DNA of 64,000 nucleotides from Candidatus Electrothrix aestuarii (GTDB lineage Bacteria; Desulfobacterota; Desulfobulbia; Desulfobulbales; Desulfobulbaceae): positions 1,137,001-1,201,000 of the forward strand of contig CP159373.1 of the NCBI GenBank assembly GCA_032595685.2. Reading direction: 5' to 3'. A model generated the notes under the pieces. The model was not told where the DNA came from. It did no database searches and saw only the letters and a program-made list of their open reading frames with translations. Each line of letters begins with the position of its first letter. The stretch's first letter is position 1. The position numbers were made by a program, and so were the translations under genes. This document shows positions 18,588 to 45,498 of the stretch, piece after piece.

Positions 18588-19802
18588 CTAGTTAGCTTTT
18601 TTGCGGATATACGCAGGCTCATCCCATTCTGCCAGATCATTCTGTTCATCAAAGATCGGGGTCGGCATGGGACGTAATCCTTTGGGTACCGGATTAGGGC
18701 GAGCAAAGCTGGTCGGCTGATTACGCGGTGGACGTTGTTGGTCCAAATCAATTCCCCCTTTGCTTCCAGTATTGAGAGATTTCACCTTATTCTTACCAGC
18801 GCGACTCACTACATCAAACTCAGAAATAGTCTCCGCAGAATCCTCAAAATTCGCAATACCCGTGGCGATGACGGTTACGCGCAACTCATCCCCCATATTC
18901 TCATCAAACAGGGCACCGATAATGATATTGGCATCCTCATGGGCCTTCTCCTGAATCAGGGCAGAAGCCTCCATGAACTCACCCATAGTCAGAGAGTTGG
19001 TGGCGGAAATATTGATCAGGATACCTAAGGCACCATCAATCCCCACATCTTCCAGCAACTGGTTATCAATAGCTCGTTTGGCAGCCTCAGTGGCACGATT
19101 TTCTCCAGAAGCTGAGCCAGAGCCCATAATGGCCGGACCAACTTCCTTCATAACGGTCTTCAAGTCGGCAAAGTCGACATTGATATGGCCGGGCAGGTTA
19201 ATAAGATCAGTGATACCCTTAACTGCTTGTAAAAGGACATCATCCACCATCTTCATCATATCCACCAAGGTGGAATTTTTTTGCATCAGGCCGAGCAAAC
19301 GATCATTGGGAACCGTGATAATGGTATCAGAGTTTTTCTTTAACTCCTCCCAACCAGCCTCGGCATTATGCATGCGTTTCTTGGCTTCAAAATAAAACGG
19401 TTTGGTGACAACAGAAACCGTCAGCGCGCCCTGCTCTTTACTGAGCTTGGCAATAATCGGTGCTGCTCCTGTTCCGGTTCCACCGCCGAGACCGGCGGTA
19501 ACAAAGACCATATCCGCACCGGATATGGCATTGGCCAAGTCATCCAGACTTTCCTGAGCTGCATCTCGTCCCATAGAGGGATCAGCACCAGCCCCCATAC
19601 CCTTCGTAATAGTCGGTCCCAATTGGATACGAATATCCGCTTTGGAGTTTTCCAATGCCTGCATATCTGTGTTTGCAGCGACAAATTGCACACCGGTCAG
19701 CCGATTATCGACCATAGTGTTAATGGCATTACCTCCGCCACCACCAACTCCGATCACCTTAATAGTCGCCACCGATTCTTCTTCTGCCATTCTATATGAC
19801 AT
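18588..19802 (-). CDS. ftsZ: cell division protein FtsZ
   Basis: 404 residues from the ATG at 19802 (MSYRMAEEES), preceded by GAGGGGG at a proper distance; an in-frame start lies 30 bp upstream. GTP-binding parts: KVIGVGGGGGNAINTM, GLGGGTGTGAAPIIA (tubulin signature) and VTVIATG. The C-terminal conserved peptide is WDEPAYIRKKA, which binds FtsA. It forms the division ring. Last gene of the dcw cluster. The linker between the GTPase core and the tail is of ordinary length. Confidence 0.97.
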   Translation of the reverse strand: MSYRMAEEESVATIKVIGVGGGGGNAINTMVDNRLTGVQFVAANTDMQALENSKADIRIQLGPTITKGMGAGADPSMGRDAAQESLDDLANAISGADMVFVTAGLGGGTGTGAAPIIAKLSKEQGALTVSVVTKPFYFEAKKRMHNAEAGWEELKKNSDTIITVPNDRLLGLMQKNSTLVDMMKMVDDVLLQAVKGITDLINLPGHINVDFADLKTVMKEVGPAIMGSGSASGENRATEAAKRAIDNQLLEDVGIDGALGILINISATNSLTMGEFMEASALIQEKAHEDANIIIGALFDENMGDELRVTVIATGIANFEDSAETISEFDVVSRAGKNKVKSLNTGSKGGIDLDQQRPPRNQPTSFARPNPVPKGLRPMPTPIFDEQNDLAEWDEPAYIRKKAN

Positions 19803-19920
19803 GCTTTCCCCCTCAAGCACTTTGCTCCCCACAGCAAATCAAATAATTAACTTTTGGTAAAATACAACGACTCTTTGTAAACACTTTAACTATAAAGCTG
19901 TCGCAGAATCTTTTCCAGTA

Positions 19921-21219
19921 CTAAATAATATTTTTCAGAAAACTCCTCAGCCTACTCAAAATGCCATCATGTTCAACTGGGATTATTTCCTTATTATTAC
20001 TTCCATATAAAACAAGGCCGACAGCGGTCGTACAGCGCGGCGATTCAACATCTTCTATTCTCCCCCCAACTCCACGGGGAAAGCTGACCCGTACCGGCAT
20101 ATCAAACACCTGCTCTGCCATATCAACAACATTGGCCAACAGGGCGGTTCCGCCGGTGATCACCATACCTGCATTAATCCGGTTTCTATACCCGGATCCA
20201 CAGATTTTTTTATTCACCACCTGAAGTATTTCTTCCATTCGGGCCTCAAGGATCTCCACCATCACCCGCTGCGAGACCTTACGGGCCTTGCGATCACCGA
20301 CAGTGGGCACCTCGATGATATGATTTTCCTTGACCAAAGAAGAAACAGCACCGCCATAGCGATATTTGAGCATCTCCGCCTCCTGCAAAGGGGTACGGAG
20401 CCCTACGGAAAGATCATTGGTCAGATTATTACCGCCCAAAGCCAGTTCCCAGGTATATTTGATCGTACCATTACAGAACACGGCCAAATCTGTGGTTCCT
20501 CCACCGATATCCAGCAAGGCCACACCGAGTTCCATTTCATCTTGAGTCAGGACCGCCCGGGCTGAAGCCACGGACTCCAGGACCACCTCAGCAACATTCA
20601 GGCCAGCCCGACTACAACTGGTAACCAAGTTATGCAATGAGGTGACATCAGCCGTCACAATATGAACATTAGTCGCCAAGCGAACCCCGGTCATTCCCAA
20701 GGGATTCTGAATACCAGTGTGGTCATCAACCATGTATTCCTGGGGCAGAACATGAATGATTTGCTGATTATCAGAGATCTTCACAGTCTGGGCAGCGTGA
20801 ATAACAGCCTGGATCTCTTTCTGCCGTATCTGCTGATTATTAATCGCGATGATTCCCGGCGAGTTGAAGCCCTTAATATGGGTTCCGGCTATACCGACAT
20901 AGACCGTCTCGATATCGCAACCAGCCATATCAGAAGCACTATCAATGGCCTGACGAATCGCTTTGACCGTGGCTTCAATATTGACCACAACGCCCTTCTT
21001 CATCCCTGAAGAGGCAGCAGTCCCCACCCCAATAATATTTACACAGCCGTCTTCAAAAACCTCACCGATGACTGCACATATTTTGGTGGTACCGATATCC
21101 AGCCCGGCAACCAGTTCTCCGGTGCCACGACTCGGCTCGACTCTCTTGGGTTCTTGCGGCTGCTCCGTTTCCTCCACTTCAGCTGCAACCTTTATATCCA
21201 GCTCTTCCATTGCGCACAT
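19921..21219 (-). CDS. ftsA: cell division protein FtsA
   Basis: 432 residues. Actin-like ATPase with LVAGLDIGTTKICAVIGE (phosphate 1, residue ~37), LLDIGGGTTDLAVF (phosphate 2) and VITGGTALLANV (adenosine loop). The C-terminus ends RLRSFLKNII, an amphipathic membrane-targeting helix. It anchors FtsZ filaments to the inner membrane. The N-terminus has a ~30-residue acidic/proline extension. Starts 4 bp after the ftsQ stop. Confidence 0.96.
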   Translation of the reverse strand: MCAMEELDIKVAAEVEETEQPQEPKRVEPSRGTGELVAGLDIGTTKICAVIGEVFEDGCVNIIGVGTAASSGMKKGVVVNIEATVKAIRQAIDSASDMAGCDIETVYVGIAGTHIKGFNSPGIIAINNQQIRQKEIQAVIHAAQTVKISDNQQIIHVLPQEYMVDDHTGIQNPLGMTGVRLATNVHIVTADVTSLHNLVTSCSRAGLNVAEVVLESVASARAVLTQDEMELGVALLDIGGGTTDLAVFCNGTIKYTWELALGGNNLTNDLSVGLRTPLQEAEMLKYRYGGAVSSLVKENHIIEVPTVGDRKARKVSQRVMVEILEARMEEILQVVNKKICGSGYRNRINAGMVITGGTALLANVVDMAEQVFDMPVRVSFPRGVGGRIEDVESPRCTTAVGLVLYGSNNKEIIPVEHDGILSRLRSFLKNII

Positions 21220-21222
21220 CGC

Positions 21223-22158
21223 CTAAGGCTCTGATCTGGCCACAAGAATACGGCCATCATGATAATCCATTCGAATTTCTTTAATCCCCTCTATTGTTTT
21301 CTTTCGATAAAACCGCCCAAGCAATTTCACGAGCTGATAATATCTTTTTTCGACATTACCATATCCTATATAAATAGGAAAGGGATGTTCAACAAGATAA
21401 ACAATAATTCCTTTTTCCTGCCTCGCATGTATTTCAGAGATTGATTGCAGAGGCAGGATAGGATTGCCTCTCGCAGCAACATGCAAAAATTCACACACCT
21501 CTCTTGTCCGTGCGTCCTCGCCCAGCTGAAACGCTCCTTCTTCATCCACCCCGTCCGGTGGCGCTATCCCGGTGACAACGGGATAGTCAATATCTTGCAA
21601 AGGATCCACAGGCACAAAAACCTCACCCTGATAATCAAGATAATACAGTCCCTGCTGCTCACCTTCGATATTAATCATCGCCAGTGGTCGGTGCTCAATA
21701 ACCCGTACGGTCAGCGTATCCGGCCAAACACGCTCTACCTCGACCTGGTCAATCCAGGGATGCTGGAGAATACGCGCTGCAACTTCCTCGGCAGTTACAT
21801 CAAAAAGCTGAACGCCTGGTTGAATATCAGCAAGGCTACGTATCTGAGCCTCGTTGCTCATGCGATTTCCCTGCACCGTCACCCGGCGCACAGAAAAAAC
21901 TCCTGAGCTCTCCAAGGTGCGAAAACTCCAACGAGCAGCAAAAAGAAGCAGTAGAATCAGTATCAGCGCAAAAATGCCTTTCCTGATCAGAAGGCGATTC
22001 AGCTCAGGCTTATGGGCAGCAGAGCTTGTTTGCTGATAACGCCCAATATTAACCCGAATCCGCAACTGGGAAGGTCGTACATAATTGGAGCGAAATTGGC
22101 GTAGCATAGGTGAACGCCCTGCTCTCTGTCGCCTATATCGTATTTTTTTTCGAGCCAC
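21223..22158 (-). CDS. ftsQ: cell division protein FtsQ
   Basis: 311 residues. Long basic cytoplasmic tail, one transmembrane helix (FALILILLLLFAARW, ~62-76), a POTRA domain (VFSVRRVTVQGNRMSNEAQI, then AARILQHPWIDQVEVERVWPDTL) and the beta domain. It binds the FtsB/FtsL complex and regulates septal synthesis. Sits between murB and ftsA in the usual order. Confidence 0.92.
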   Translation of the reverse strand: MARKKIRYRRQRAGRSPMLRQFRSNYVRPSQLRIRVNIGRYQQTSSAAHKPELNRLLIRKGIFALILILLLLFAARWSFRTLESSGVFSVRRVTVQGNRMSNEAQIRSLADIQPGVQLFDVTAEEVAARILQHPWIDQVEVERVWPDTLTVRVIEHRPLAMINIEGEQQGLYYLDYQGEVFVPVDPLQDIDYPVVTGIAPPDGVDEEGAFQLGEDARTREVCEFLHVAARGNPILPLQSISEIHARQEKGIIVYLVEHPFPIYIGYGNVEKRYYQLVKLLGRFYRKKTIEGIKEIRMDYHDGRILVARSEP

Positions 22159-24589: not shown

Positions 24590-25687
24590 TCAGTTTCCGA
24601 TAAGTTCCATGCAGCTGTCCAGAATTCTTTGGGTGGCCTCAGGCTGCCCCATGTCTCTCATAGCGAGAGCCATTTTTTTCAGCTTATCAATATCACCTAA
24701 TAATTGCGAAAGGATTTTACCCAATATCTCTGCATTCAGTTCAGATTCACGATACATTACAGCCCCGCCACCAGCAACATAGTATTCAGCATTCTTGGCC
24801 TGATGATCGTCGGCTGCATAGGGGTAGGGAATCAGCACAGCAGGCAGGCCCATCACGGACAGCTCAGCCAAGGAAGTCGCTCCTGCTCTGGCCAGGACAA
24901 GATCTGCCTGACTGTACAGGGAGGCCATATCAGTAAAAAATGCCCGCACTTCAGCCTGAACCTTGGCTGCCTCATATCCGTCCCGAACCTTTTCCTCATC
25001 CGCTGTACCGGTTTGATGAATCAGTCGCACAGCCTTTTTCTGTTCACCATCAAGTTGCGCCGCTACATCAAGCATCAGCATATTAATACGATGGGCCCCA
25101 AGGCTACCGCCCATAACCAGCAAGGTCAAGGGCTGGTCGTCTGTTTTATTATCGTTTTCCTGTTGTCGACGCTCTGCTGCGGCCAAAATTTCCTGCCGAA
25201 CCGGGTTTCCTGAAACTACGGTTTTCTCTTCTGGGAAGGGATACTCTCCTGGAATGGAGACGAAAATTCTACTGACAAAACGAGAAATCATCCTGTTGGC
25301 CAGCCCAGGAATAGAATTCTGCTCATGGATACAGGTCGGCACGGAACGCAGACGAGCCGCCAGCAAAACCGGCCCGGTGACATAGCCTCCCACACCGAAA
25401 ACCAAATCCGGTTGAAAACGCCGTATGATCTTCCACGATTCCAGCACCGCTGTGGGCAGACTCAGCAGGCTCTTGAGGCGGTTCTTCAGCCCCATGCCCT
25501 TTAATCCCATGCAGGCGATGGACTCCTGTTGAAAATTACGTCCGGCCAGGGCCTTTTGGTCAAGCTGCCGCTGCGTTCCAATGAAGAGTATTTCGCAGCC
25601 GGGATATTTTTGCTGCAAGGCGGTTCCTAAGGCGATACCGGGAAAAAGATGGCCGCCGGTTCCGCCACCGGTGATGATTATGCGCAT
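24590..25687 (-). CDS. murG: MurG N-acetylglucosaminyltransferase
   Basis: 365 residues, GT28 fold. ITGGGTGGHLFPGIAL at the N-terminus is the membrane-face loop; GVGGYVTGPVLLAA, HEQNSIPGLANR and VLARAGATSLAEL are the acceptor and UDP-GlcNAc site motifs. It converts lipid I to lipid II at the inner membrane. Normally preceded by ftsW; here the upstream neighbour is the HEPN-motif gene. Confidence 0.97.
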   Translation of the reverse strand: MRIIITGGGTGGHLFPGIALGTALQQKYPGCEILFIGTQRQLDQKALAGRNFQQESIACMGLKGMGLKNRLKSLLSLPTAVLESWKIIRRFQPDLVFGVGGYVTGPVLLAARLRSVPTCIHEQNSIPGLANRMISRFVSRIFVSIPGEYPFPEEKTVVSGNPVRQEILAAAERRQQENDNKTDDQPLTLLVMGGSLGAHRINMLMLDVAAQLDGEQKKAVRLIHQTGTADEEKVRDGYEAAKVQAEVRAFFTDMASLYSQADLVLARAGATSLAELSVMGLPAVLIPYPYAADDHQAKNAEYYVAGGGAVMYRESELNAEILGKILSQLLGDIDKLKKMALAMRDMGQPEATQRILDSCMELIGN

Positions 25688-25715: not shown

Positions 25716-27050
25716 TCATGATTCTTCTCTATCAACTTCCCCAAATATAGCTTCAGGCAACGTCAACTTTTCATGCTGTGCAATCTTTTCGATCTCCTGC
25801 CTTTTACTCGGATTTGATTTAAAGAACATGTACAATCCAGCAGACATTTCAGGTTCCGAACCATCTTCATGAAGCAACTCATGAAGCCTCTTCTCTTGAT
25901 CGTACAGAACGCACATCATCCGAACAGTTTGAACTGAAATTTCGTGTGATTCTAAATACCAGCAAATTATTTTTATATTCCCCTCAACCCATCGATTTTT
26001 TTCAACGATTCCAATTGAAGTTCCTGCTCCCAGTCTTCCTATTTTTTGGAATACATCGGCAAAAAAATCGTTTTGCTTGAGTGTCAATTCATCTTCTAAA
26101 CTCAGGCTATCTTCTCTCACATAAGGAAAGGCCTTGCTGTTTGCTTCTGCTTTTTCTTCCTGAGGAATTAAATCAGCACGCAACAAAGCTACAAACACTT
26201 TCATGTCATTATGATAGCCAGAAAAACCAGAAAAAAGGTGCTTTCTCCATAGACAACGCACTGTCTGTGGATTTTGCTCAAGAAGAATCACATGCTGCGG
26301 AAATTCCCGAAGAAAATTTACAAGGCAATTCTCGCTAGTTACAAGAAAATCTTTGAGCGCATTCACAGTAGAGTCGTTGGTGACACGAATGACCGTATCT
26401 AATACTCGGTTTACCAGTCGATTTATACGATAATCTTCATCAAAAATTGATGATATTCCTGTGACGACACCTTCAAAGAATTTAACCAACTCATCAGTAT
26501 CTACACAATAGGGGATTCGTTCAATGATGGGATCAAGAGGAGTATCAGGGGGAGTAACATTCAAATCAAAATAGAGAATAATTTCATTCTGGAGAGAAGC
26601 AGTGCTCCCGTTTGGCACAAATTTTCCCAAATTTGAGAAGATGAATTGCCAGAAAGATTCAACATGTGAATGATCAATCTCATTCGTTTTAAAATGGGCG
26701 CAGTCATTGCGTCTATCTTTCCAATAGCGGACCTGATGTCGCAAATCTTCAGAAACAAGAAAAACGGGGGCTGGCTTTTGCTGTTGTACCAGATCAAACA
26801 CTTCATGGTCCCATGAATCTTCACGGCGTAGTTTAGCCAAGTTTTTTTGCCATTGCTTCGAGTTAATCCCGGCTGGGCATGCAGATCTCAACAAACGCGC
26901 TCGGAGAGCGAGCCCCCAGCCTATATAAGAAAATAGTAAAGCTGCGCGATAAGCCCCGGCACGATAACAAGTCTCCGCCTCTTGGAAAGGAATGATAGTT
27001 TCTTCTGGAAGGGGAAAAATCTCCTGTATTCTAGTCAGCAGTGTTTTCAT
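25716..27050 (-). CDS. HEPN-motif protein of unknown function in the ftsW position
   Basis: 444 residues, no membrane segments. The N-terminal ~140 residues are helical and carry RYWKDRRNDCAHF, which gives R-x4-H (Arg114-His119), the RNase motif of HEPN domains. The first part (CYRAGAYRAALLFSYIGWGLALR) also looks like a HEPN helix pair. The rest is unrecognised. HEPN proteins are often RNA-cleaving toxins or defence parts. It lies between murG and murD with short gaps (28 and 21 bp), exactly where ftsW sits in most dcw clusters. Its codon use is more A/T-rich than its neighbours', suggesting transfer. Confidence 0.65.
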   Translation of the reverse strand: MKTLLTRIQEIFPLPEETIIPFQEAETCYRAGAYRAALLFSYIGWGLALRARLLRSACPAGINSKQWQKNLAKLRREDSWDHEVFDLVQQQKPAPVFLVSEDLRHQVRYWKDRRNDCAHFKTNEIDHSHVESFWQFIFSNLGKFVPNGSTASLQNEIILYFDLNVTPPDTPLDPIIERIPYCVDTDELVKFFEGVVTGISSIFDEDYRINRLVNRVLDTVIRVTNDSTVNALKDFLVTSENCLVNFLREFPQHVILLEQNPQTVRCLWRKHLFSGFSGYHNDMKVFVALLRADLIPQEEKAEANSKAFPYVREDSLSLEDELTLKQNDFFADVFQKIGRLGAGTSIGIVEKNRWVEGNIKIICWYLESHEISVQTVRMMCVLYDQEKRLHELLHEDGSEPEMSAGLYMFFKSNPSKRQEIEKIAQHEKLTLPEAIFGEVDREES

Positions 27051-27071: not shown

Positions 27072-28460
27072 CTATCCGATATTGCCTCTTTCCACCATTC
27101 CTCTAACACAGCGACTAAACTCATCCCCCCGCTGCTCATAACTCCTGAACATATCAAAACTGGCGCAGGCCGGGGCCAGAAGCACCGTATCGCCTGGAGA
27201 TGCGGCAGCAAAGGCCATTGCAACCGCCTCTTCCATATCAGCGGCAAACTGATACCCAACACCGGCCTCATCGGCAACGGCGGCCAGATCCGGCGCAGAC
27301 TCACCGATCAGCACGACGTGTTTGACATGCTGACGAAATACCGGCACCAAGGCATCAAAATCGCCCCCTTTATTCCTTCCCCCGGCAATCAGGATGACCT
27401 CTTTTTCAGCACCCATCCCAAAGCCTGCTAAGGCCGCAACCACAGCTCCCACATTAGTCGCCTTAGAATCGTTAACAAAACGAACGCCGTTTATCTCGCC
27501 TACAGGAGTCATCCTATGCTGGGGCGGTTGAAAATCGGTCAGTCCGGCCTTAATATCCTGCTCGTTGCAGCCAAAGGCCCGGATTGCAAGGATAGCTGCA
27601 GCGGCATTGTACAGATTCACCCTGGAATGCAGCCGCGTCTCTGCAAGCTCGTACAACTCACCCGTACCTTCAGGCCCGAACTCCGGTTCCACGCGCACAG
27701 CTTTTCCTTCTACCCTGGCGCGACAACCGGGCTGGGTACCAAAGCTATATAATTTCTCACCAGCTGTGGGTGGTGCTGCCGCAAGCAGCACATCGTCCGT
27801 TCCGATAATCGCTGTATCGCCCCTGCCTTGACAGGCAAAGAGCTGCATCTTCGCGGCAACGTACTCCTCAAAACTGCCGTGGCGGTCAATATGATCCGGG
27901 GAAAGATTAAGGAGTAGGCCGATATTAGGCCGAAAATAGCCAGCCGCTTCTAACTGAAAACTGGACAACTCCAGCACCACGACCTCAGCGTCTCCCGGCT
28001 CCAGAAGGTACTCCAGGATCGGGGTGCCGATATTACCGCCCACAAAGACCTTTTTGCCGCAAGTCCGCAAGAGATGACCAATCAGGCTGGTCACGGTGGT
28101 CTTGCCGTTGGACCCGGTCACGGCAATCACCGGCACCTGAATACGTCCGGCGGCCAAGGCCAACTCTCCAACGACGGGTACACCTTGTGTGCGAGCAGCC
28201 GCCAGCACCGGCAAGTTTGCTGGAACCCCAGGACTGGGGACGATCAAGTCCGCATCGGCAAAAAAGGCAGCCCTATGGCCGCCAGTTTCTATGTTTGCAT
28301 TGCATTGCCTGAGCACGGCCTGTTCTTCCTCCGGGATATGCTCCCGAAATTCAGAAACCGTAACCTCCAGCCCCTGTTGATGCAGATAGCGTACTGCTGC
28401 CAACCCGGATTTCCCCAGACCAACCACTACGGACTTCATGCCCGCCTTTAATTCAATCAT
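27072..28460 (-). CDS. murD: UDP-N-acetylmuramoylalanine-D-glutamate ligase
   Basis: Mur ligase with KSVVVGLGKSGLAAVRYL at the N-terminus, VIAVTGSNGKTTVTSLIGHL (ATP loop) and VNDSKATNVGAVVAAL (C-terminal domain). It adds D-Glu to UDP-MurNAc-Ala. I place the start at 28460 (MIELKAGMKSV); the longer frame to 28514 would overlap the antiporter gene. About 460 residues, usual length. Confidence 0.95.
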   Translation of the reverse strand: MIELKAGMKSVVVGLGKSGLAAVRYLHQQGLEVTVSEFREHIPEEEQAVLRQCNANIETGGHRAAFFADADLIVPSPGVPANLPVLAAARTQGVPVVGELALAAGRIQVPVIAVTGSNGKTTVTSLIGHLLRTCGKKVFVGGNIGTPILEYLLEPGDAEVVVLELSSFQLEAAGYFRPNIGLLLNLSPDHIDRHGSFEEYVAAKMQLFACQGRGDTAIIGTDDVLLAAAPPTAGEKLYSFGTQPGCRARVEGKAVRVEPEFGPEGTGELYELAETRLHSRVNLYNAAAAILAIRAFGCNEQDIKAGLTDFQPPQHRMTPVGEINGVRFVNDSKATNVGAVVAALAGFGMGAEKEVILIAGGRNKGGDFDALVPVFRQHVKHVVLIGESAPDLAAVADEAGVGYQFAADMEEAVAMAFAAASPGDTVLLAPACASFDMFRSYEQRGDEFSRCVRGMVERGNIG

Positions 28461-28491
28461 AATTGAGTAACCGAGATAATCTCTCTTACAT

Positions 28492-30342
28492 TCAAGATAC
28501 AACCTGCCCCGCATCCGAACCCTGGATCGGCACCAAACTCTGCGACGTCTGTTGGATAATACTGATCAGCACATCCCCGGCAACCGGGTCTACCGGACTG
28601 TCAATAGTGCAAACCTCTATCGAACGATTCGGCTTGAGAACAAACAACACGATCGCTGTATCACCGTACTCGGCCCTGAAAGCCTGATAATCAAACTCCT
28701 TGGTCAACTCAGTCCGTTTGATTTTCGGATCACTGCCAAAGGCATCATTGAGCCGAAAATAACCCAGTCCCTCGCCAAAGAGCAGACGACCATGCTGCTC
28801 CTGCGGAATTGCTTCATGTCGGCTATCCTCTTCTACAAAAGGAAAGGACAATTGATAGACCTCCTGCCGACCAAAATCTTCCAGAAAATGGGAACAGGTC
28901 AAGGCATTGACCGCATCATTGGCTGTCATGGCAAGCATACGGCCCAAGCCGCCGTAATCAATTTCCTCCCGGGTCTTTTTCGCCAAAGCATTTCCATAGA
29001 TAGCAGGCATACCCGCCATCCGGGAAAGGGCGACATTCTCCCGATCAGTGTCGATCAGCACAACAGAGAAACCTTCATTCATGATAGCCTGAGCCATTGC
29101 CCTTGCCCCCTTATGGGCACCAACAAAAAGAATCCCCTGTGGATTGGCCCGCGACAGACCGAACTTTCGTGACAGCGGTACCGCAGAAAGACCGTAAATC
29201 AGCACGGTGGCAAAAACCATCAGAAAGGTAACAGGAACAAGTTCAAGCGCCTCTGGATACCCTTTGTCCGCCAGCTCCAGCGCAAACACAGAGGCCACTG
29301 CCGCAGCCACAATACCGCGTGGGGCCATCCAGGCCATAAACACCCGTTCCCGGCAAGGCAAAAACGAACCAGCTGTGCCCGCCAGAATAGAAAGCGGACG
29401 TACTACCAGAATCATAAACGCGACAAAAAGAAAGCTATCCCAACCAAGCCCTCTGATATCCTCCGGCTGGAGACGAGCCGCAAGAACCACAAAAAGACAG
29501 GAAATCAGTAAGGTTGTCAAGGTTTCCTTAAACTCGATAACATGCCGGATGGAAACCCAGTTCTGATTAGCAAGGGTGATCCCCATGACGGTCACTGCTA
29601 ACAAACCAGCCTCATCCTGCACAACATTGGCTGCTGCAAAGGAGGCAAACATCAGCATCAGAGAGACGGGGTTATGCAAGGCATCAGGCAACCAAAATTT
29701 CCGGAGCACCAAGATCAGCACCGCAGCGGCAATAAAACCGAAAGACACGCCCACCACAAAGGTGAGGCCAAAATCGATGAGTGCCTCTTCAAGACCATCA
29801 CGAAGCCTGCTGTGCCGCACTACCGTGAAGACCAAGACCGCCAGGGTTGCACCCAGAGGGTCAACAACAATGCCCTCCCATTTCAGGAGCGAGCTGACGC
29901 GACCACGGAGCCGAAGATGCCGCAGCATAGGACCAATAACAGTAGGCCCGGTCACAACCAGAATTGCCGCCAACAAGGCCGCAACCGGCCAAGGAAAGCC
30001 GATAATATAATGAGCTGCAACCGTACCCAGCACTAAGGATATCAGCACCGCAAGGGTCAATATCTGGAATAAAACGCCCTGAATCTTCTGCTTACGCAGC
30101 TCCCGAAAGCGCAGATTCATGCCCCCTTCGTAGAGAATAACCGCAACTGCAAGAGAGACCATAGGAAAAAGCAGGTCGCCGAAGAGCTGGTCAGGATGGA
30201 GCAGTCCAAAACCTGGCCCGACAAGCAGGCCAGCAACCAGCAGGAAAAGAATAGACGGCAGGTGCAGCTTCCATGCTGTCCACTGGGCCATGATACCCAG
30301 AATAAAAATTCCAGTAAGTTGTATGAGTATATCGTGCGACAA
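28492..30342 (-). CDS. cation:proton antiporter with TrkA-N domain
   Basis: 616 residues. About 12 membrane segments (residues 1-400), with GPTVIGPMLRHLRLRGRVSSLLKWEG and DPLGATLAVLVF, as in CPA1 (NhaP) Na+/H+ antiporters. A cytoplasmic Rossmann domain follows (ILFVGAHKGARAMAQAIM, ~400-520; TrkA-N), then a C-terminal tail with conserved polar segments. It probably exchanges Na+ or K+ for H+ with nucleotide gating. It lies in the 9 kb insert in the dcw cluster. Confidence 0.85.
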   Translation of the reverse strand: MSHDILIQLTGIFILGIMAQWTAWKLHLPSILFLLVAGLLVGPGFGLLHPDQLFGDLLFPMVSLAVAVILYEGGMNLRFRELRKQKIQGVLFQILTLAVLISLVLGTVAAHYIIGFPWPVAALLAAILVVTGPTVIGPMLRHLRLRGRVSSLLKWEGIVVDPLGATLAVLVFTVVRHSRLRDGLEEALIDFGLTFVVGVSFGFIAAAVLILVLRKFWLPDALHNPVSLMLMFASFAAANVVQDEAGLLAVTVMGITLANQNWVSIRHVIEFKETLTTLLISCLFVVLAARLQPEDIRGLGWDSFLFVAFMILVVRPLSILAGTAGSFLPCRERVFMAWMAPRGIVAAAVASVFALELADKGYPEALELVPVTFLMVFATVLIYGLSAVPLSRKFGLSRANPQGILFVGAHKGARAMAQAIMNEGFSVVLIDTDRENVALSRMAGMPAIYGNALAKKTREEIDYGGLGRMLAMTANDAVNALTCSHFLEDFGRQEVYQLSFPFVEEDSRHEAIPQEQHGRLLFGEGLGYFRLNDAFGSDPKIKRTELTKEFDYQAFRAEYGDTAIVLFVLKPNRSIEVCTIDSPVDPVAGDVLISIIQQTSQSLVPIQGSDAGQVVS

Positions 30343-34803: not shown

Positions 34804-36280
34804 ACAGTAATGACAATTTCTTTCCCTGTATGCTCAGTAATTTTAAATTTTATTATTATCAAGTCGATAGCCTTTTAATCTCAAGCTGTTCAAACATAAA
34901 ATTTATCAGCTGAGACCAATTACTGAAAAATAAATATTTGGTTAATGCTTTCAGGTCATTAAAAAATGTTTTCCGGACAGACAAGACCGATCTGACGGCT
35001 TTGTATTTTTTATCAACAAATTCCAGGAAAGTATGGGCCAGAAATGCGACCAAGTTGAGAGTCAGCAAGGTGTTCGAGAAAAATTTATCACCATGTCCGA
35101 AATTGTGATCTAAATGATAGCCTTTTGTTTTAAGGATATTATTGTTTTCATTTTCCACTTTCCATCGAGTTCTTCCGGCTTGTACTATAGATTGAACATT
35201 GGTTCTGTCTATTTTAAAATCAGTGATAAAAGAATTCTTGTACAGAACCTCTTGTGTTTTGGTGTTGATGACGGTCAACTCAACCCAATTGACAAAAGGA
35301 GCGTCATCCCCCGCTTGAGGGGTAAGTTATTAGCATAACGATAAGTATGAAGCTCGTGAAATTTTCCGTTCCATTTTCTTTGAGAAATTACTGTAATACC
35401 ATCTTTCTTTTCAAGTTCGGCAACATATTGGTAAAGGGTCGTATGTGAGGAGGGTTTGCAAATCAGGATAAAGCGAAAATCGTGTGCTAATAATAAGTTG
35501 CAAAACGGCCCTCTGGAAAACAAATCGTCTCCCAGGATGATAACTTTTCGAGCGGATAAAGAGGAATTCCGTTCAATCCAGCGTTTAGCAGCATTCAACT
35601 CGCAATCCTGTTTTGCAGAACCATCCTGAGGGGTGACGAATTCTGGTTCCAGAGCGATGACCTTGTTGTTGTCCGGTGCAGCTACCACCGGGGTAAGAAC
35701 CTTATGGGAATAACTTACCGTTCCGTTGGAGTTACGAGTAACGGAACAGTTTTCACAATGTATTTTGGAGGAACGAAAAAATTCTGTACCATCTATCGGA
35801 ACCAACAAATAATCATCCAGCACTCTATAACGATCCAAGTGTCCAGCACTTTCAAGCCGATCAAAAGTTTCTGAAAAAATTGGATAAAAATTATCAGAAG
35901 TAAGGGTGTCAAGAAGATTGCGGGTCTGATTGTCCGACATGATTTGTGTTATTCCGAACAAACTTTGAGCATTATTATGCCCGTGAGCCTGCTGCATTGC
36001 CCGCTGATGAGATAAGAATGATGGGGATTGGTTGAAAAACATGGAAAACGCACCTAACGCCGCATCCTTCATTGAATATGTGAGGTTTGGGCTGAATTTC
36101 CGGTAATCCGGGAGTTCATCAAATATGCTATGGATCTGATTGACAAACGTATCGAATGTTAATTCGTTGGTAGCTGAAGGCATAAGCAGAGAACTCGTGT
36201 GATATTGATCATGCCTTTCAATAACACATATTCGTTAAATAAAATAGTATGTTGTCAAATTTATAATTGCTGCCTGTATG
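34801..36280 (-). mobile_element. insertion sequence with DDE transposase
   Basis: About 1.48 kb bounded by short inverted ends: CATACAG at 34801 and CTGTATG ending at 36280, with further imperfect matching inward. It contains one transposase reading in two frames. No target duplication is evident. The left end coincides with the ATG of the RT gene, so the IS has removed or displaced anything upstream, including any retron RNA gene. Confidence 0.6.
34859..36183 (-). pseudogene. IS4-like DDE transposase, frameshifted
   Basis: Two overlapping frames, 36183-35275 (302 codons) and 35278-34859 (139 codons). DDE residues: LVPIDGTEFF (first Asp), VIILGDDLFSRG (second), and RTRWKVENENN (Glu, in the second frame). 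The N-terminus (LPDYRKFSPNLTYSMKDAAL) is typical of a widespread IS4-like group. The break falls in a run of five G's on the coding strand; six G's would give one protein. It is either dead or made by -1 slippage. Confidence 0.75.
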
Positions 36281-36487: not shown

Positions 36488-36898
36488 TTACTGCCCCTGA
36501 ATAAACACCAAGGGAGACACATTAAACCTGGCACTTAACTTCGTTATCTGTCTGATATTCAAGTTCCTCTTCCCCTTTAAAACCTCAGAGACCACCCCCT
36601 GACTCCCAATTTCAGGAAGATCGGATTGTTTTAAACCATGCTCACCCATTAAATAGCGCAATGCATCTACAGGAGTACCGTATTGCTCTGGGAAATTATT
36701 CGCTTCGTATGTTTCAACCAAATTCCCGATTGACTCCATAAGCGAGGACAACGGGTGATTCTCATTTTCACCAATCTCATCAATCAGGCTATCGAGCAAA
36801 GAGACTAAATTCTCATACTCTGCCTCTGAGTGAGGGACGGAAAATATATTTTTAATAGACGGCCAAACATGAGCTATGTTTTCAAGTTGCGGTTCCAT
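36488..36898 (-). CDS. HigA-like HTH antitoxin/transcription factor
   Basis: 136 residues. N-terminal ~60-residue helical part (SEAEYENLVSLLDSLIDEIGE) and C-terminal XRE-type HTH (YLMGEHGLKQSDLPEIG, then VVSEVLKGKRNLNIRQITKLSARFNVSPLVF). This is the YgjM/HigA2-type 'helix-turn-helix domain antitoxin'. No HigB toxin is next to it; the upstream neighbour is a small membrane protein. It may bind its own promoter. It lies within the cassette between mraY and its relic. Confidence 0.8.
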   Translation of the reverse strand: MEPQLENIAHVWPSIKNIFSVPHSEAEYENLVSLLDSLIDEIGENENHPLSSLMESIGNLVETYEANNFPEQYGTPVDALRYLMGEHGLKQSDLPEIGSQGVVSEVLKGKRNLNIRQITKLSARFNVSPLVFIQGQ

Positions 36899-36906
36899 CG
36901 TCAGCC

Positions 36907-37200
36907 CTATCTTGCTATATACTCTTTATCGTAATAATTTTGAAACGGGAAAACCCATTTTGCTGAAAGCTCAACACCATACATGTGCCTGACTTTATCA
37001 CCATCCTCCGTCGTCACGTGTGAATACCATATCGTATCCAGATCCTCATCATACCTCTCAATTTTCAATTCTTTCAGAGTAGGATCCGACATAGATTTAT
37101 GCTCGATAAATTCGTTCGGAATTGGCAGCCGATAGCATGCAAAATAAAAAAGAATGAGAAGAAGCAAAGCAACCAAAGATGCTATCAACACCTTCCTCAT
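36907..37200 (-). CDS. small single-pass membrane protein at mraY 3' end
   Basis: 97 residues from the ATG at 37200, overlapping the mraY stop as ATGA, so translation is probably coupled. N-terminal membrane helix ([20 protein letters not shown]), then a ~70-residue extracytoplasmic part with charged and aromatic residues ([19 protein letters not shown]). No family recognised. It is followed 8 bp later by the HigA-like gene. Probably arrived with the cassette. Confidence 0.55.
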
Positions 37201-38276
37201 CGCAACTTCAACGTCGCTAGTGCCATCAACCCAAGAATAATAGAAATAATCCAAAAACGAATCACCACCCTGGGCTCTGCCCATCCCTTCTTCTCAAAAT
37301 GATGATGAAACGGTGCCATGAGAAAGATGCGTTTACCGCCGGTCATCTTGAAATACCCCACCTGCATAATCACCGACAGCACCTCCATCACAAAGATACC
37401 GCCAGCAATGGCGAGGAGAAACTCCTGCTTAATAATGATCGCCACCGCGCCCAAGGCCCCGCCCAAGGCCAGCGAGCCCACATCTCCCATGAAGATCTGC
37501 GCCGGATAGGAGTTGAACCAGAGAAAACCAAGACAGGCCCCGACAATGGTGCCGCAGAACACGGCCACCTCACCGGCACCCAGCACATAAGGAAGCTGAA
37601 GATAATCCGAGATCAACACATTACCCGCTGCATAAGCAAAGATAAAATAAACCGCCGCAGTGATCATCACCGTGCCGGTGGCCAAACCATCCAGTCCGTC
37701 AGTCAGATTCACCGCATTGGAGGAGCCGACAATCACGGCCACGGCAAAGGGGATATACCACCAGCCAAGGTCCGGCTGAATCCATTTAAAAAAGGGCAAA
37801 CTCAGGTTCCCGTCATAGCCGGGATGAAGATGAAGAAAAAGACCGACTATACAGGCACCGGTCACCTGAAGGATCAACTTACCACGAGCCGACAAGCCAT
37901 CGGTGTTACTCTTTGTCACCTTTTTCCAATCATCAACTGAGCCGATGAGGCCGTAAAACAGGGTGAGCAACAAACAGGTCCAGACCAGGCTATTGCTCAG
38001 ATCTGCCCAGAGCAAGGTTGAGCCTGCAATGGCAACTAAGATTAAGAGTCCGCCCATGGTGGGTACGCCCTTCTTGCTGAAATGGCTCTCCGGCCCGTCG
38101 TCGCGTACCACCTGCCCAATCTGCTTGCTTTTCAACCAACGGATAAACAGCGGCCCGGAAAGAAAGAGGATAAGAAAGGCCGTGACTGCCGCACCAATGG
38201 AACGAAAAGTCAGATAACGGAAGACATTAAAGGCACTGAAATAAACGTGCAGGGGGTACAGCAAATGGTACAACAT
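37197..38276 (-). CDS. mraY: phospho-N-acetylmuramoyl-pentapeptide-transferase
   Basis: 359 residues from the ATG at 38276 ([12 protein letters not shown]); the frame extends upstream but this start has a GGAG about 11 bp before. Ten membrane segments. Active-site features: [24 protein letters not shown] (catalytic Asp), [11 protein letters not shown], and [12 protein letters not shown] near the C-terminus. It joins UDP-MurNAc-pentapeptide to undecaprenyl phosphate, giving lipid I. The last 33 codons are duplicated at 36377-36475. Confidence 0.96.
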
Positions 38277-38406
38277 GGTTAGAGAACTCCTATCCCGGCT
38301 CACCGGGCCGGAACAACAAAACATGAAAGAAGGGAAGCTTGGCGGCTTTACCGATCATTTTCATATAAATATCTATCTCACCCCTGGGATGAAACAGCAA
38401 AAGATA

Positions 38407-41500: not shown

Positions 41501-41670
41501 TTAATAGCCACAAACAAACTTCCTGGTCCGGCCTCTCTGGAGTCACAGGTAACTCCGGTACACATTCCCGAAGCCCCATTATAAAGAACCTCCGCAGCCA
41601 AATTGGCCGGGAGGCAGGAGAGTAAGGCATCAAGACCCTTTGTAACGGGCCTATTCATGTTCTGTTTCAA
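38557..41670 (-). CDS. murEF: fused MurE-MurF (UDP-MurNAc-tripeptide and pentapeptide ligase)
   Basis: 1037 residues with two complete Mur ligases. MurE part (1-~540): IGLTGTNGKTTISWMLEQ (~121), and SDNPRSEDP (~437-445), the motif that selects meso-diaminopimelate. MurF part (~560-1037): STDTRSIASGDIFVAL at its start, VGITGSCGKTTVKEM (~654) and LNDCYNANPGSMSAAL. No stop or start lies between, and the linker is ~25 residues. The fusion makes the last two cytoplasmic amino-acid additions to UDP-MurNAc. Sits in the usual murE and murF places. Confidence 0.95.
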   Translation of the reverse strand: MKQNMNRPVTKGLDALLSCLPANLAAEVLYNGASGMCTGVTCDSREAGPGSLFVAIKGAQADGHQFIPQAVAQGSQVLLVEDDPGPLANVTVVRVQDTSEALGWLASAFYDFPVQSLCLIGLTGTNGKTTISWMLEQMLTSAGHQVGVIGTVNYRYQDEEGRTVIEPAPLTTPGQVQLQRLLRQMVDQGVTHVIMETSSHAIAQGRLAGLFFDVAVFTNLSRDHLDYHGGMEEYFAAKKLLFTRYLKPEGRAVIVTEPSGREGENWGERLRKELLEKHAVAVTDCALHSKAAVNASELSQDINGFSCELTLLGQQMSLHSRLTGKYNVLNLLAAAGVGVVLQMKAQDVLRGLQEVGQVPGRLERVQLPGLSIDEQPCVLVDYAHTPDALKNVLQTLRPLVEGRLICVFGCGGDRDQGKRPLMGAVATEFADLSIVTSDNPRSEDPAEIIRQVAEGVSFAGAVERVVEDLFGDQPVLDGDFPGFVCVEDRKRAVHLACALVGPGDMVLVAGKGHEDYQVIGQERIFFDDRIEGLNGLLRWTVPHLHRVLPDTEVLQQGKQRGLFGQISTDTRSIASGDIFVALAGENFDGHDYLGVAAEAGAAVVIVQQERGGATGRSPLLPNHVVVLKVPDTLVALGHLAAYRRRLLGQNLPLVGITGSCGKTTVKEMTAAIYHRHFKAAEGTPSSVDPVLKTGGNFNNLIGLPLSLLPVTAEHKIAIMEMGMNQFGEIERLTAIADPDIACITNVQAAHLEGLGSIAGVAQAKGELFAGMRPDTVAVVNYDDPHVRRLPKKSEKIIGFASTSAGRRYKPTVKATRIQDRGAEGMRFTLHIGDWQERINVRAPGMHNVSNCLAAAAMAHAGGVTPATIVTSLSEFQSADKRMQMMTLPGGVRVLNDCYNANPGSMSAALRTVSGFGHDCCHIALLGDMLELGAEAETAHAEIGRQAAELGYDHLAVTGNFAGQVAQGAQKAGMAEEQVHVFTDTHTMADWLYKEMIQAGVKADDWLLLKGSRGMRMEAVLQEIEHRFATGINEKEFA

Positions 41671-43612
41671 GTATCAGCTCACAAATTTCTGTTTCATCAA
41701 GCGGCTCACCAGGAGCCGGTTTTTGTTCGATTATACGACCGCTTCCCTTAATCTGTATCTTGATATTATACCTGTTCAGCTGCTGTAAGCCCTTACGTAG
41801 ACTGAGCCCAATTAAGGAAGGCATGACCAAATGAGCACGGGCAAGGGTTTCCTTGACCTCAGCAGCATTATGCTTCTTGCTGTAAAAGTACCGCTTCAGA
41901 TTGGCAGGGTTTTTCTCCGCAGAGGGCGCCGTAAAGGTCTCAACCTGCCCGCCATATCCGACAAGAAGAGGTAACACATTTTTGCCTATCCCGAGCAAAC
42001 CTTGCAGATCCCGTTTTTCCACCTCAGAAGGATAAGGAGCAAGTGTATCGTAATTAGCGGTGAGGAGCAATAAAACCTCAGGTTTTTCTCGTGGAACAGC
42101 AACCACCAGGAGATCCTGAACAAGCTGCCTACTCAATCCCTTTTCCTTGGAGACCTTCGTAATCATGTCTGCAAAGAGAAAACCTCCCTCGGCAGAAGAA
42201 AATGAAGCGCCAAGCAGCGTATTCCCTAGGCGTTTTCCTTGCGCTGGAGAGAGTATTCGTGCCTCTGGAGATCCAGCAAAATCACGGAGGAAAAAGCGCT
42301 CTTCCGTATGATCATACAATCCGTTGAGAAACCAAGGCACAACCCTATGTCCACCATTCAGCAACGTTGCCAGCCCATACACAATCTGCACCGGACTCAG
42401 CAGATTGTTGTCTCCCATATCCTGAGCCGAAGCCCTGCCCTGCGCCGATGAAAGCGGAAGAAAATCTGGAATCGGCAGCCCCATATCCAGCCTGAGCCAA
42501 TACTCTTGCAACAGGTCCTCGGACAGACCATAGTCAGGCACACTGAGCGTGACAGGGAGTAAATCCCTATCCATCCCCATCTCTAAAGTAGCGGCGGCCC
42601 GCACCAATAAAGGTCGTACTAATTCCTGGTCATAGCGGGGGGCAAACAGGGCTTTATGCGCCTGCAACTCATCTGTCTGCCAGAAATAATTGGGATCAAA
42701 CCCCGGCTGGCTGATCATGGCCAGAATTCGACCGGAATCAGGGGCGATGGCTATGGCACTCCCGCCACTTGCCCCTTTCCGTTGTCGGTACTCTGCAAGG
42801 ATCTGGTCAAGCTGCCGCTGCAAGGCCATATCAATGGTCAGGACTATATCAGCAACCGTTTCGCCCAGGGCATCATGCCCGGCAAAATTCACCACCGGAA
42901 TATTAACCGGCCTGAATTCACCAGGCTCCAATACGGTATCATACAGGGCTTCAACACCGCTCAGACCAGCATTCCCACTAACAAAACCAAGCACTTGCCC
43001 CGCAACTCCATGATCTGGATAATACCGTACCTCCACTGGTCGGCAATGAATACCCGGCAGGTGCAGGTCTTCTATAGCCTCAACCTGGTGCATTTCCAGG
43101 TTATCAGCCAGCTCTGTCATCCCATCTGCATACTGAAGCTGTTGCAGAATTTTCTCTTTTTCCCGCTCCAGAATCAGGGAGAGCTGCTCAGCAACTTTAT
43201 TCCTATCCGGTAATTCAGTGGGCTGAACCAAAAGGGAGAAGAGCCGATAAGAAACCGACATCTCCTCCATATTTCGATCATAAATTGTCCCACGCAGGAT
43301 CGGACGATCCTGTTGATCTTCAGCATTTTCCTCTCCGAGCACGTCCTGGCCAATTGCTTTGGAAATGCTGGCAGGCAGGCGCATAACATTTGTCAGCCCC
43401 TGCCAGGAAAAGGGAGGAAAAAAAACGAGCCAGCAAAAGACAAGGACCAGCAGAATCAGCAGAAAAGTAAAGCAAGCATCTTTCCTGCTTCTTTGTAAAG
43501 GACGTCCCGGAAGTGTATAGTTATAGCCACTTCTCGGCAGCGCATCCTTTTTTTTACCGAAAATCTGGCGAAACAGGCTTGTTAAACGCCCTATCATCAA
43601 CATAGGCCGCAA
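41651..43612 (-). CDS. ftsI: FtsI-like penicillin-binding protein lacking catalytic motifs
   Basis: 653 residues. Cytoplasmic tail, membrane helix (~46-66), PBP dimerisation region (RGTIYDRNMEEMSVSYRLFS... GLSGVEALYD), a transpeptidase-like domain (GGSAIAIAPDSGRILAMIS onward), and a C-terminal PASTA domain (VMPSLIGLSLRKGLQQLN..., ~597-650). The nucleophile motif STFK is replaced by ELVR (330-333), followed by PLLVRAAATLE. I find no SxN at the expected place, and the KTG strand reads ITKV (~485). The fold-level landmarks LLSPVQIVYGLATLLNGG are kept. Probably a structural pseudoenzyme. Overlaps murEF by 20 bp. Confidence 0.85.
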   Translation of the reverse strand: MRPMLMIGRLTSLFRQIFGKKKDALPRSGYNYTLPGRPLQRSRKDACFTFLLILLVLVFCWLVFFPPFSWQGLTNVMRLPASISKAIGQDVLGEENAEDQQDRPILRGTIYDRNMEEMSVSYRLFSLLVQPTELPDRNKVAEQLSLILEREKEKILQQLQYADGMTELADNLEMHQVEAIEDLHLPGIHCRPVEVRYYPDHGVAGQVLGFVSGNAGLSGVEALYDTVLEPGEFRPVNIPVVNFAGHDALGETVADIVLTIDMALQRQLDQILAEYRQRKGASGGSAIAIAPDSGRILAMISQPGFDPNYFWQTDELQAHKALFAPRYDQELVRPLLVRAAATLEMGMDRDLLPVTLSVPDYGLSEDLLQEYWLRLDMGLPIPDFLPLSSAQGRASAQDMGDNNLLSPVQIVYGLATLLNGGHRVVPWFLNGLYDHTEERFFLRDFAGSPEARILSPAQGKRLGNTLLGASFSSAEGGFLFADMITKVSKEKGLSRQLVQDLLVVAVPREKPEVLLLLTANYDTLAPYPSEVEKRDLQGLLGIGKNVLPLLVGYGGQVETFTAPSAEKNPANLKRYFYSKKHNAAEVKETLARAHLVMPSLIGLSLRKGLQQLNRYNIKIQIKGSGRIIEQKPAPGEPLDETEICELILETEHE

Positions 43613-43699: not shown

Positions 43700-44059
43700 T
43701 CAGTACAGATAATGTTCCTGATCCTTTTCAGGAAGATGGAGATCTAATTGAACGGCACCAAGAGCCACGAGACGGGGCTTGGCAAGCAGGTGGTCTCGCC
43801 TGGACTCCAAGCGAGCCTTTTCACGGCTCAGGTTTTCGTAAACAAGCTGCTGCTGCGCAAAGCTCGCTTTTTCTCGACCTATATTCCAGGAAAAGAACAG
43901 GCTTACGATAAAGAAAACCAAGAAAACCGCACCCAAGGTATACACAGACAAACGAATAAAATCCTCTGAAAAACCGTCTCTCTTTCTGAACACTGTCATC
44001 TGCCTGCGCAGACTGAACGAGAGAGCAGGTGTTCGTATTGAGCGAACATTCTGATTCAC
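43700..44059 (-). CDS. ftsL: FtsL-like cell division protein
   Basis: 119 residues: ~35-residue cytoplasmic tail, one membrane helix (VYTLGAVFLVFFIVSLFFSW, ~39-58), then a coiled-coil (QQLVYENLSREKARLESRRDHLLAK) and a short end. Size, topology and place between rsmH and ftsI match FtsL. Sequence conservation of FtsL is low, so position carries the call. Confidence 0.8.
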   Translation of the reverse strand: MNQNVRSIRTPALSFSLRRQMTVFRKRDGFSEDFIRLSVYTLGAVFLVFFIVSLFFSWNIGREKASFAQQQLVYENLSREKARLESRRDHLLAKPRLVALGAVQLDLHLPEKDQEHYLY

Positions 44060-44101: not shown

Positions 44102-45028
44102 TTATAATCTCTCAGCCACCCGCAATTTTGCACTGCGAGCCCGTGCATTGCTCCTCACCTCTTCCGCTGTCGGCAGGACAGGCTTATTGGTCAACACTCT
44201 GTAATAGGGTGTTTTGGCAAAGGCCTGTTTGACAATACGGTCCTCCAGTGAGTGAAACGTTATAATACAAAACCGTGCCCCCGGCTTGAGGAGCTTTGGC
44301 CCATCTGTCAATAAACGGGTCAGGTTCTCCAGCTCCCGGTTGACAGCAATACGCAAGGCCTGAAACACCTTGGTGGCAACATGAATTTTCTTGGGATGGT
44401 ATTTTTTCGGTATTGACAAGGCAACAAGGTCTGCCAGCTGCCGAGTCGTCATGACTTTTTCCTGTTCCCGAGCCTCGACAAGAAAACGGGCCACCCGCCG
44501 GGCTTGCCGTTCTTCTCCATAATGGAAAAAGATATCTGCAAGCTCTTCCTGGGAAAGCCGGTTCACCAGTTGCTCCGCTGTCACTTCCCGTCTGGTGTCC
44601 ATCCGCATATCCAATGGCGCCTCTTCCCGAAAGCTGAACCCTCGTTCCGGGCAATCCAGTTGGAGAGAAGAAACACCAAGATCAACCAGAATACCGTCAA
44701 CTAAGCCATCAACTCCGTTCTGCCCCTGATGCTGTATTTCTTCAGCCATGTCTGCATAGGAGGCGTGAATGAGCTGAAACCGCTCTCCAAACCCAGACAA
44801 ACGCTTTGCCGCAAATTCGGCAGCCTGGGCGTCCCACTCAAACCCCAGCACCCTTCCTTCCGGTGCGGACTGCTCCAGAATCAGCTCGGTATGCCCACCC
44901 AGCCCCAAGGTCCCATCCACGTAGCACCCGGGTGAACAGGGCTGAAGCCATTCCAGGACCTCCTGAAAAAGTACCGGGATATGCAGATCCCTCGCATCTT
45001 GCTGAGCAAAAACAGACTGTGTGGTCAC
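44102..45028 (-). CDS. rsmH: 16S rRNA m4C1402 methyltransferase
   Basis: 308 residues. HIPVLFQEVLEWLQP, then YVDGTLGLGGHTELIL (SAM loop), GILVDLGVSSLQLD, and the closing signature RFCIITFHSLEDRIVKQAF. It methylates 16S rRNA at C1402. The GTG start overlaps the mraZ stop by one base, indicating coupling. Confidence 0.96.
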   Translation of the reverse strand: MTTQSVFAQQDARDLHIPVLFQEVLEWLQPCSPGCYVDGTLGLGGHTELILEQSAPEGRVLGFEWDAQAAEFAAKRLSGFGERFQLIHASYADMAEEIQHQGQNGVDGLVDGILVDLGVSSLQLDCPERGFSFREEAPLDMRMDTRREVTAEQLVNRLSQEELADIFFHYGEERQARRVARFLVEAREQEKVMTTRQLADLVALSIPKKYHPKKIHVATKVFQALRIAVNRELENLTRLLTDGPKLLKPGARFCIITFHSLEDRIVKQAFAKTPYYRVLTNKPVLPTAEEVRSNARARSAKLRVAERL

Positions 45029-45498
45029 TACAAAATACCCAATGAAGACAAGCCTTCACGAAAACTGGTGAAATCTTCCCTGGTACGGCGAACCTCATTC
45101 TGCCAGGCCCCTTTATCCCAGATCTCAAAATGATCTAACATACCGTTCAACACCACGTCCTTGCTGATACCGAACTCATTCCGCAGAGACCCGGGCAGGA
45201 GAATTCTGCCCTGTTTATCCAAAGAACATTCAATAACACCGGAAATAACATAACGAATAAAGGCACTCATGCCTGGCTGGCTTCGCCCCTGGGTTAATAA
45301 TTTCTCTTCCAGGGTTTCCCACTCAGCAACAGGATAAGCCTTCAGACTTTTCTGCCAATTAGTAACAATAAGGGCATTGCTATAGACCTCGGACAATACC
45401 TCCCGAAAGCGAGTAGGGATATTCAGGCGCCCTTTTGCATCCAAAATATGCTCAGAACGGCTGCGAAAACGCAATCCAGCAATTTTTTCTTTTGTCAT
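45028..45498 (-). CDS. mraZ: transcriptional regulator MraZ
   Basis: 156 residues with the tandem SpoVT/AbrB-like folds: FRSRSEHILDAKGRLNIPTRFRE in the first half, ECSLDKQGRILLPGSLRNEFGI in the second, both with the DxKGR motif. It binds repeats in its own promoter and represses the dcw cluster. First gene of the cluster here. Confidence 0.95.
   Translation of the reverse strand: MTKEKIAGLRFRSRSEHILDAKGRLNIPTRFREVLSEVYSNALIVTNWQKSLKAYPVAEWETLEEKLLTQGRSQPGMSAFIRYVISGVIECSLDKQGRILLPGSLRNEFGISKDVVLNGMLDHFEIWDKGAWQNEVRRTREDFTSFREGLSSLGIL

Follow-up and report, generated by a model that had tools for sequence, protein, structure and literature searches.

Almost all bacteria with a cell wall are considered to need the FtsW-FtsI synthase in order to divide (PMC10693644). 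Two departures from this rule are close to the case presented here. In Bacillus subtilis, the catalytically dead S309A form of the class B penicillin-binding protein (PBP) PBP 2B still allows the division complex to assemble while PBP 3 supplies the activity (PMC5656894), and in Clostridioides difficile division during growth proceeds without a canonical FtsW/FtsI pair (PMC10693644). Here we describe a protein of 653 amino acids (aa), derived from FtsI and devoid of a recognizable catalytic centre, encoded in a stretch of 64,000 nucleotides (the window; positions 1137001-1201000 of a single-contig genome of 5.1 Mb) of Candidatus Electrothrix aestuarii, a cable bacterium of the order Desulfobulbales in the NCBI taxonomy. 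It shares with FtsI/PBP3 of the FtsW-FtsI synthase the position in the dcw cluster, the membrane helix, the pedestal, the transpeptidase fold and a PASTA domain, but it has no SxxK, SxN or KTG, and no FtsW was found in the genome. Whereas the inactivation of PBP 2B is a laboratory mutation, the loss seen here is natural, runs across the sampled order and is accompanied by no second division PBP or FtsW that we could find. C. difficile, in turn, retains the SEDS protein and PBP of its dcw cluster (SpoVE and SpoVD) as sporulation enzymes, while the cluster described here has lost its SEDS gene and contains a PBP without motifs.

The missing ftsW in Desulfobulbaceae is already published: Geerlings 2021 (PMC7873302) reported ftsW, ftsN and zipA as absent from two Ca. 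Electrothrix and two Desulfobulbus genomes. FtsI was taken there as present and recruited, with an Escherichia coli-like activity implied, and the available part of that paper makes no mention of lost motifs. Of the dead FtsI, or of lost motifs in this group, we found no report in the open-access literature; one may exist in a subscription journal.

Loss of the active-site triad in the dcw FtsI

The gene is ftsI by position and descent. It occupies the dcw position between rsmH and murE and reads from a TTG start at 43612 as an uninterrupted open reading frame (ORF) of 653 codons, M4 or M6 being possible true starts; identity to the corresponding genes is 68% in E. aarhusensis, 70% in E. marina and 58% in E. 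gigas. A sequence-only reading of the window had proposed that the protein keeps the FtsI layout with its active site lost, and our analysis agrees on both counts. Pfam, hydropathy and a structure model together recover a single N-terminal membrane helix (by the latter two), a pedestal whose conservation is similar to that in triad-bearing FtsI (with model confidence partly low there), a transpeptidase fold and a PASTA domain, the last matched by 30 of the 31 members of an alignment from the order. The Pfam Transpeptidase match barely clears its cut-off (22.6 versus 22.1 bits), its best stretch covering profile positions 159-194 of 299; the structure prediction that the earlier reading had called for still returns the transpeptidase fold in a model of moderate quality, and a second look by VIA-align agrees.

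Against a reference of 19 dcw FtsI proteins, selected for having the triad, YDQELVR aligns with EPGSTFK, so that ELVR at residues 330-333 does stand in place of the nucleophile motif STFK, as had been claimed. The other two motifs, also said to be missing, are absent in register, and no K[ST]G occurs anywhere in the window protein. As for ITKV, which had been taken for the KTG strand, it does lie in a strand of the model, its exact register being uncertain.

We also applied an alignment-free test, which asks whether SxxK, SxN and K[ST]G stand at the spacing expected of a catalytic site; for MrdA, S-x-D counted as well. None of 57 FtsI sequences of the order passed (56 genomes from 15 families, own genome included; 50 sequences longer than 550 aa and seven partial), and all 30 MrdA loci of the order did. 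Serine and lysine occur together in the nucleophile columns of none of the 50 full-length sequences. The transpeptidase region of the 31-member alignment holds no invariant or near-invariant Ser, Cys, Thr, Lys or His, the sole invariant Ser of that alignment being S604, within PASTA. A looser version of the test flagged two of the 57 (L112 and L120; L, G and f are our handles for loci, genomes and families), in both of which the first motif lies well before the pocket, as well as G069 and G105 of family f28; strict spacing removed them.

Comparison with related genomes thus extends the loss to every FtsI sequence of the order that we collected. Such conservation makes chance or sequencing error very unlikely and, together with the open frame, led us to reject a frameshift or sequencing error in this gene. 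A second motif-bearing FtsI elsewhere in the genome was likewise rejected: a PF00905 search, in which the window gene itself fell under the threshold, yields, besides MrdA, only two motif-bearing class A PBPs, one of 718 and one of 1134 aa. The sequence-only reading had suggested seeking a second, catalytic class B PBP; among the class B PBPs of this genome only MrdA, encoded beside RodA, still carries the motifs. To judge from the absent motifs, the FtsI-derived protein is almost certainly without transpeptidase activity. By function, a protein that on testing lacks the defining motifs should not be classed among the class B PBPs, and annotations naming such proteins active FtsI would be wrong.

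The frame had been described as free of decay, which the ratio of nonsynonymous to synonymous substitution rates (dN/dS) corroborates. For the window gene it is 0.15-0.17 against four congeners (0.04-0.16 in the transpeptidase region), and it lies at 0.15-0.30 in eight of the nine pairs compared, dS being saturated in the ninth; a value near 0.15 argues against decay. In sequence sets chosen by hand rather than at random, PASTA is more conserved in the order than in triad-bearing FtsI, and conservation of the active-site stretch is low.

Apparent absence of FtsW and its link to the state of FtsI

A PF01098 search of the own genome did not find FtsW; the single match is RodA (362517-363566), beside MrdA. 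Our sample of the class, 197 genomes at least 85% complete, consists of this order only. A PF01098 match is present in 189 of them and exactly one in 184, the five genomes with more than one match holding fragments, a split gene or, in G231 (8% contaminated), two RodA each beside MrdA. All 30 SEDS loci of the order tested for kind were RodA. In outgroup clusters a SEDS gene follows murD or precedes murG; none lies between these genes in the 11 order clusters in which both were read. A sample of 148 genomes of the phylum includes 141 from outside the order, with at least two SEDS matches in 111, one in 28 and none in two. Going by these gene searches, ftsW appears to have been lost in Desulfobulbales. 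In G014, a one-contig genome of the family, the only SEDS gene is split in two frames (contig 137697-138757; L286, L289).

Across the phylum, 51 loci were read and BLAST recognised the ftsI-slot ORF in 45 of them. FtsW loss and FtsI decay are tightly linked: the triad is absent in 25 of 25 FtsW-less clusters, 14 of these from the order, and kept in 18 of 19 ftsW-bearing ones, the exception being G063, where ftsI lies in two open frames. The remaining cluster, G101, has the triad and shows no ftsW, its contig stretch ending in murE, before the ftsW place. The 440-aa ftsI-slot ORF of G081, which BLAST left unrecognised, is likewise without triad. Several other families of the phylum have one SEDS gene, which adjoins MrdA wherever examined. 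G070, G074, G118 and G145 have no SEDS match other than the dcw ftsW and keep the triad, so a single SEDS gene is not by itself the correlate of a dead FtsI. The searches for class A PBPs, single-SEDS families, short-form profile matches, FtsB and SEDS fragments used hand-picked, non-random genomes or loci.

In FtsW-less families outside the order, the ftsI-slot proteins measure 643 (f28, with ELAG at the nucleophile), 569, 560, 538, 457 and 440 aa; those of f35 and f65 are shorter still, at 248-329 aa. Four of these five shortest forms were scanned with Pfam and matched PASTA alone, one of them above the cut-off, and all five have a hydrophobic helix and match the order profile in its PASTA part. 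Two trees were built from RsmH, MurE, MurF and MraY (45 taxa from 45 of the 51 loci, each with at least three of the four genes). Both put the FtsW-less lineages in separate places; one tree has three changes, of which its starred branches force only one, and a single FtsW-less clade is not rejected (approximately unbiased test, p 0.10). The two trees disagree on the FtsW-bearing G118, which lies outside the FtsW-less lineages in the tree with three changes but among them in the other. We lean slightly towards a scenario in which FtsW-FtsI was dismantled in the whole order and in further lineages of the phylum, perhaps several times: FtsI would have become a non-enzymatic, mostly PASTA-bearing septal protein, at the extreme a membrane anchor with a PASTA-like end, and RodA-MrdA or class A PBPs would have taken over division. 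Beside this, locus L258 (G063, family f22) carries its ftsI as frames of 428 and 257 aa despite the presence of ftsW, and both trees place that lineage next to the FtsW-less f35 and f65.

A proposed division scaffold and candidate sources of the septal wall

Since FtsI is kept under selection without its catalytic centre and FtsW was not found, the septal wall is probably made in a non-textbook way. The explanation we favour, with reasonable though limited confidence, is that the dead FtsI acts as a division scaffold after loss of ftsW and that the septum is built by another synthase, most economically RodA-MrdA. Loss of ftsW in the order would have left the FtsI transpeptidase without its polymerase partner. 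Freed from that enzymatic partnership, FtsI would keep its anchor, pedestal, empty transpeptidase fold and conserved PASTA, and would probably link FtsQ with the nascent septal wall. With FtsW-FtsI activity gone, septal peptidoglycan must come from another synthase; the one pair of SEDS protein and class B PBP found, RodA-MrdA, would serve both elongation and division, possibly assisted by the long class A PBP of the order, and we prefer it as a pair shared by the FtsW-less lineages read. A structural role of the FtsI-derived protein in division seems likely, and that RodA-MrdA is the main septal synthase is an evenly balanced proposition. The PASTA domains of PBP1 from Staphylococcus aureus bind the wall, contribute to interactions with DivIB and FtsW and are essential for division (PMC9426605), and certain second-site mutations allow this species to divide without PBP1 transpeptidase activity (PMC7617827).

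Several observations weigh against this explanation. The transpeptidase activity of S. aureus PBP1 is itself essential (PMC9426605). The structure model is weak overall (mean predicted local distance difference test score, pLDDT, 59.3; predicted template modelling score 0.48; built from 10 sequences), with many loops and part of the pedestal below 50 pLDDT, and dN/dS of PASTA among congeners, at 0.14-0.31, is not below that of the transpeptidase region. The genome search used a loose prefilter, and RodA identity was checked at 30 loci and a few more of the 189. Eight of the 197 class genomes have no SEDS match; among them is G032, rated 99% complete, which also lacks a full MrdA-like match. 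We read these eight as probable assembly gaps. The RodA-MrdA genes adjoin what we read as apparent mreBCD, which favours an elongation role, and class A PBPs fit the role of septal synthase equally well.

This last point leads to the strongest competing account, which also takes the dead FtsI as a scaffold but has the septal wall made by the 1134-aa class A PBP, as by PBP1 in C. difficile (PMC10693644); we regard it as a possible, distinctly less favoured answer. The enzyme has a strong glycosyltransferase domain, and its STLK, SEN and KTG are visible by eye, the spacing pattern going unmatched owing to the insert. Relatives over all or most of its length occur in all 24 order genomes searched, own genome included, a few of them in pieces, and 32 other chosen genomes of the phylum gave only partial best matches at 31-46% identity. 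That distribution may, however, merely mark the order, and we know of no divisome link for this protein. Among the chosen genomes of FtsW-less families outside the order it has no full-length relative, which excludes it as a general answer for those families.

The remaining accounts fare worse than either RodA-MrdA or the long class A PBP. Crosslinking of the septum by enzymes outside the searched families, for instance L,D-transpeptidases together with a class A glycosyltransferase, is unlikely: nothing speaks directly against it, but RodA-MrdA and two motif-bearing class A PBPs are at hand. We think it very improbable that the FtsI-derived protein is a functionless, decaying relic. Two FtsW-less families outside the order do retain only 248-329 aa and the active-site stretch shows little conservation, but the dN/dS values speak against this, PASTA is conserved beyond triad-bearing FtsI, the protein stays in the dcw slot of the clusters read and even the shortest forms keep the helix and the PASTA-part match to the order profile. 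A hidden active site, in which a shifted or unusual nucleophile preserves transpeptidase or hydrolase activity, might draw on the still predicted fold and on purifying selection in the transpeptidase region, but is scarcely credible given the lack of any near-invariant candidate residue there in 31 sequences and of a correctly spaced triad in all 57.

An order that includes cable bacteria and Desulfobulbus seems to divide without FtsW or FtsI activity while retaining the FtsI protein, a separation of structural role and catalysis brought about by natural evolution. This makes RodA-PBP2 and a class A PBP testable as septal synthase. It also carries a prediction for beta-lactam response: FtsI-directed drugs would have no effect on division, and PBP2-directed drugs would block it.

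Features of the locus and its neighbourhood

The coordinates of the features discussed are collected in Table 1. The dcw order here is mraZ, rsmH, ftsL-like, ftsI, a murE-murF fusion and mraY, followed by murD, murG, murC, murB, ftsQ, ftsA and ftsZ, most of these names being assigned by us from sequence; mobile and other genes interrupt the cluster between mraY and murD. A DivIC/FtsB-family protein is encoded outside the window in the same genome.

Table 1. Coordinates of the FtsI-derived protein, its parts, the surrounding dcw genes and the long class A PBP (window positions unless stated otherwise)
Feature	Position	Strand	Remarks
FtsI-derived protein without catalytic centre, 653 aa, ftsI slot of dcw cluster	41651..43612	-	
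Membrane helix, about residues 47-65	43418..43474	-	Kyte-Doolittle 3.02; model helix 43-64
Pedestal (PBP_dimer), residues 107-213	42974..43294	-	Pfam 46.7 bits
Transpeptidase-like fold, about residues 254-557	41942..42853	-	
ELVR, residues 330-333, at SxxK nucleophile place	42614..42625	-	start of model helix 333-344
ITKV, residues 484-487, near KTG place	42152..42163	-	model strand 478-490; exact register uncertain
PASTA, residues 596-640	41693..41827	-	Pfam 28.3 bits
Putative ftsL	43700..44059	-	position and size only; no Pfam FtsL match
rsmH	44102..45028	-	named from sequence
mraZ	45028..45498	-	named from sequence
Fused murE-murF, 1037 aa	38557..41670	-	Pfam Mur ligase domains twice; gene names ours
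mraY	37197..38324	-	named from sequence
murD	27072..28514	-	named from sequence
444-aa gene between murD and murG (usual ftsW place)	25716..27050	-	no Pfam match
murG	24590..25687	-	named from sequence
ftsQ	21223..22158	-	Pfam POTRA_1 FtsQ-type and FtsQ_DivIB_C
ftsA	19921..21219	-	named from sequence
ftsZ	18588..19832	-	named from sequence
Class A PBP, 1134 aa, glycosyltransferase and transpeptidase domain split by long insert	L133:942-4343; chromosome 2243941-2247342		

In the clusters read, a murE-murF fusion is also present in order families f1, f4 and f12 and in f66 and f76 outside the order, and the two genes are separate in f3, f5, f13, f14 and f15. Within the interrupted part of the dcw cluster, the ORF at 33297-34583 joins part of a reverse transcriptase to a trypsin-like domain. 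Between mraY and murD, an apparent transposase gene lies in two adjoining frames (34859-36183), the larger of which has no Pfam match, and a small gene at 36488-36898, with an HTH_3 match just under the cut-off, is by our reading a HigA-like antitoxin.
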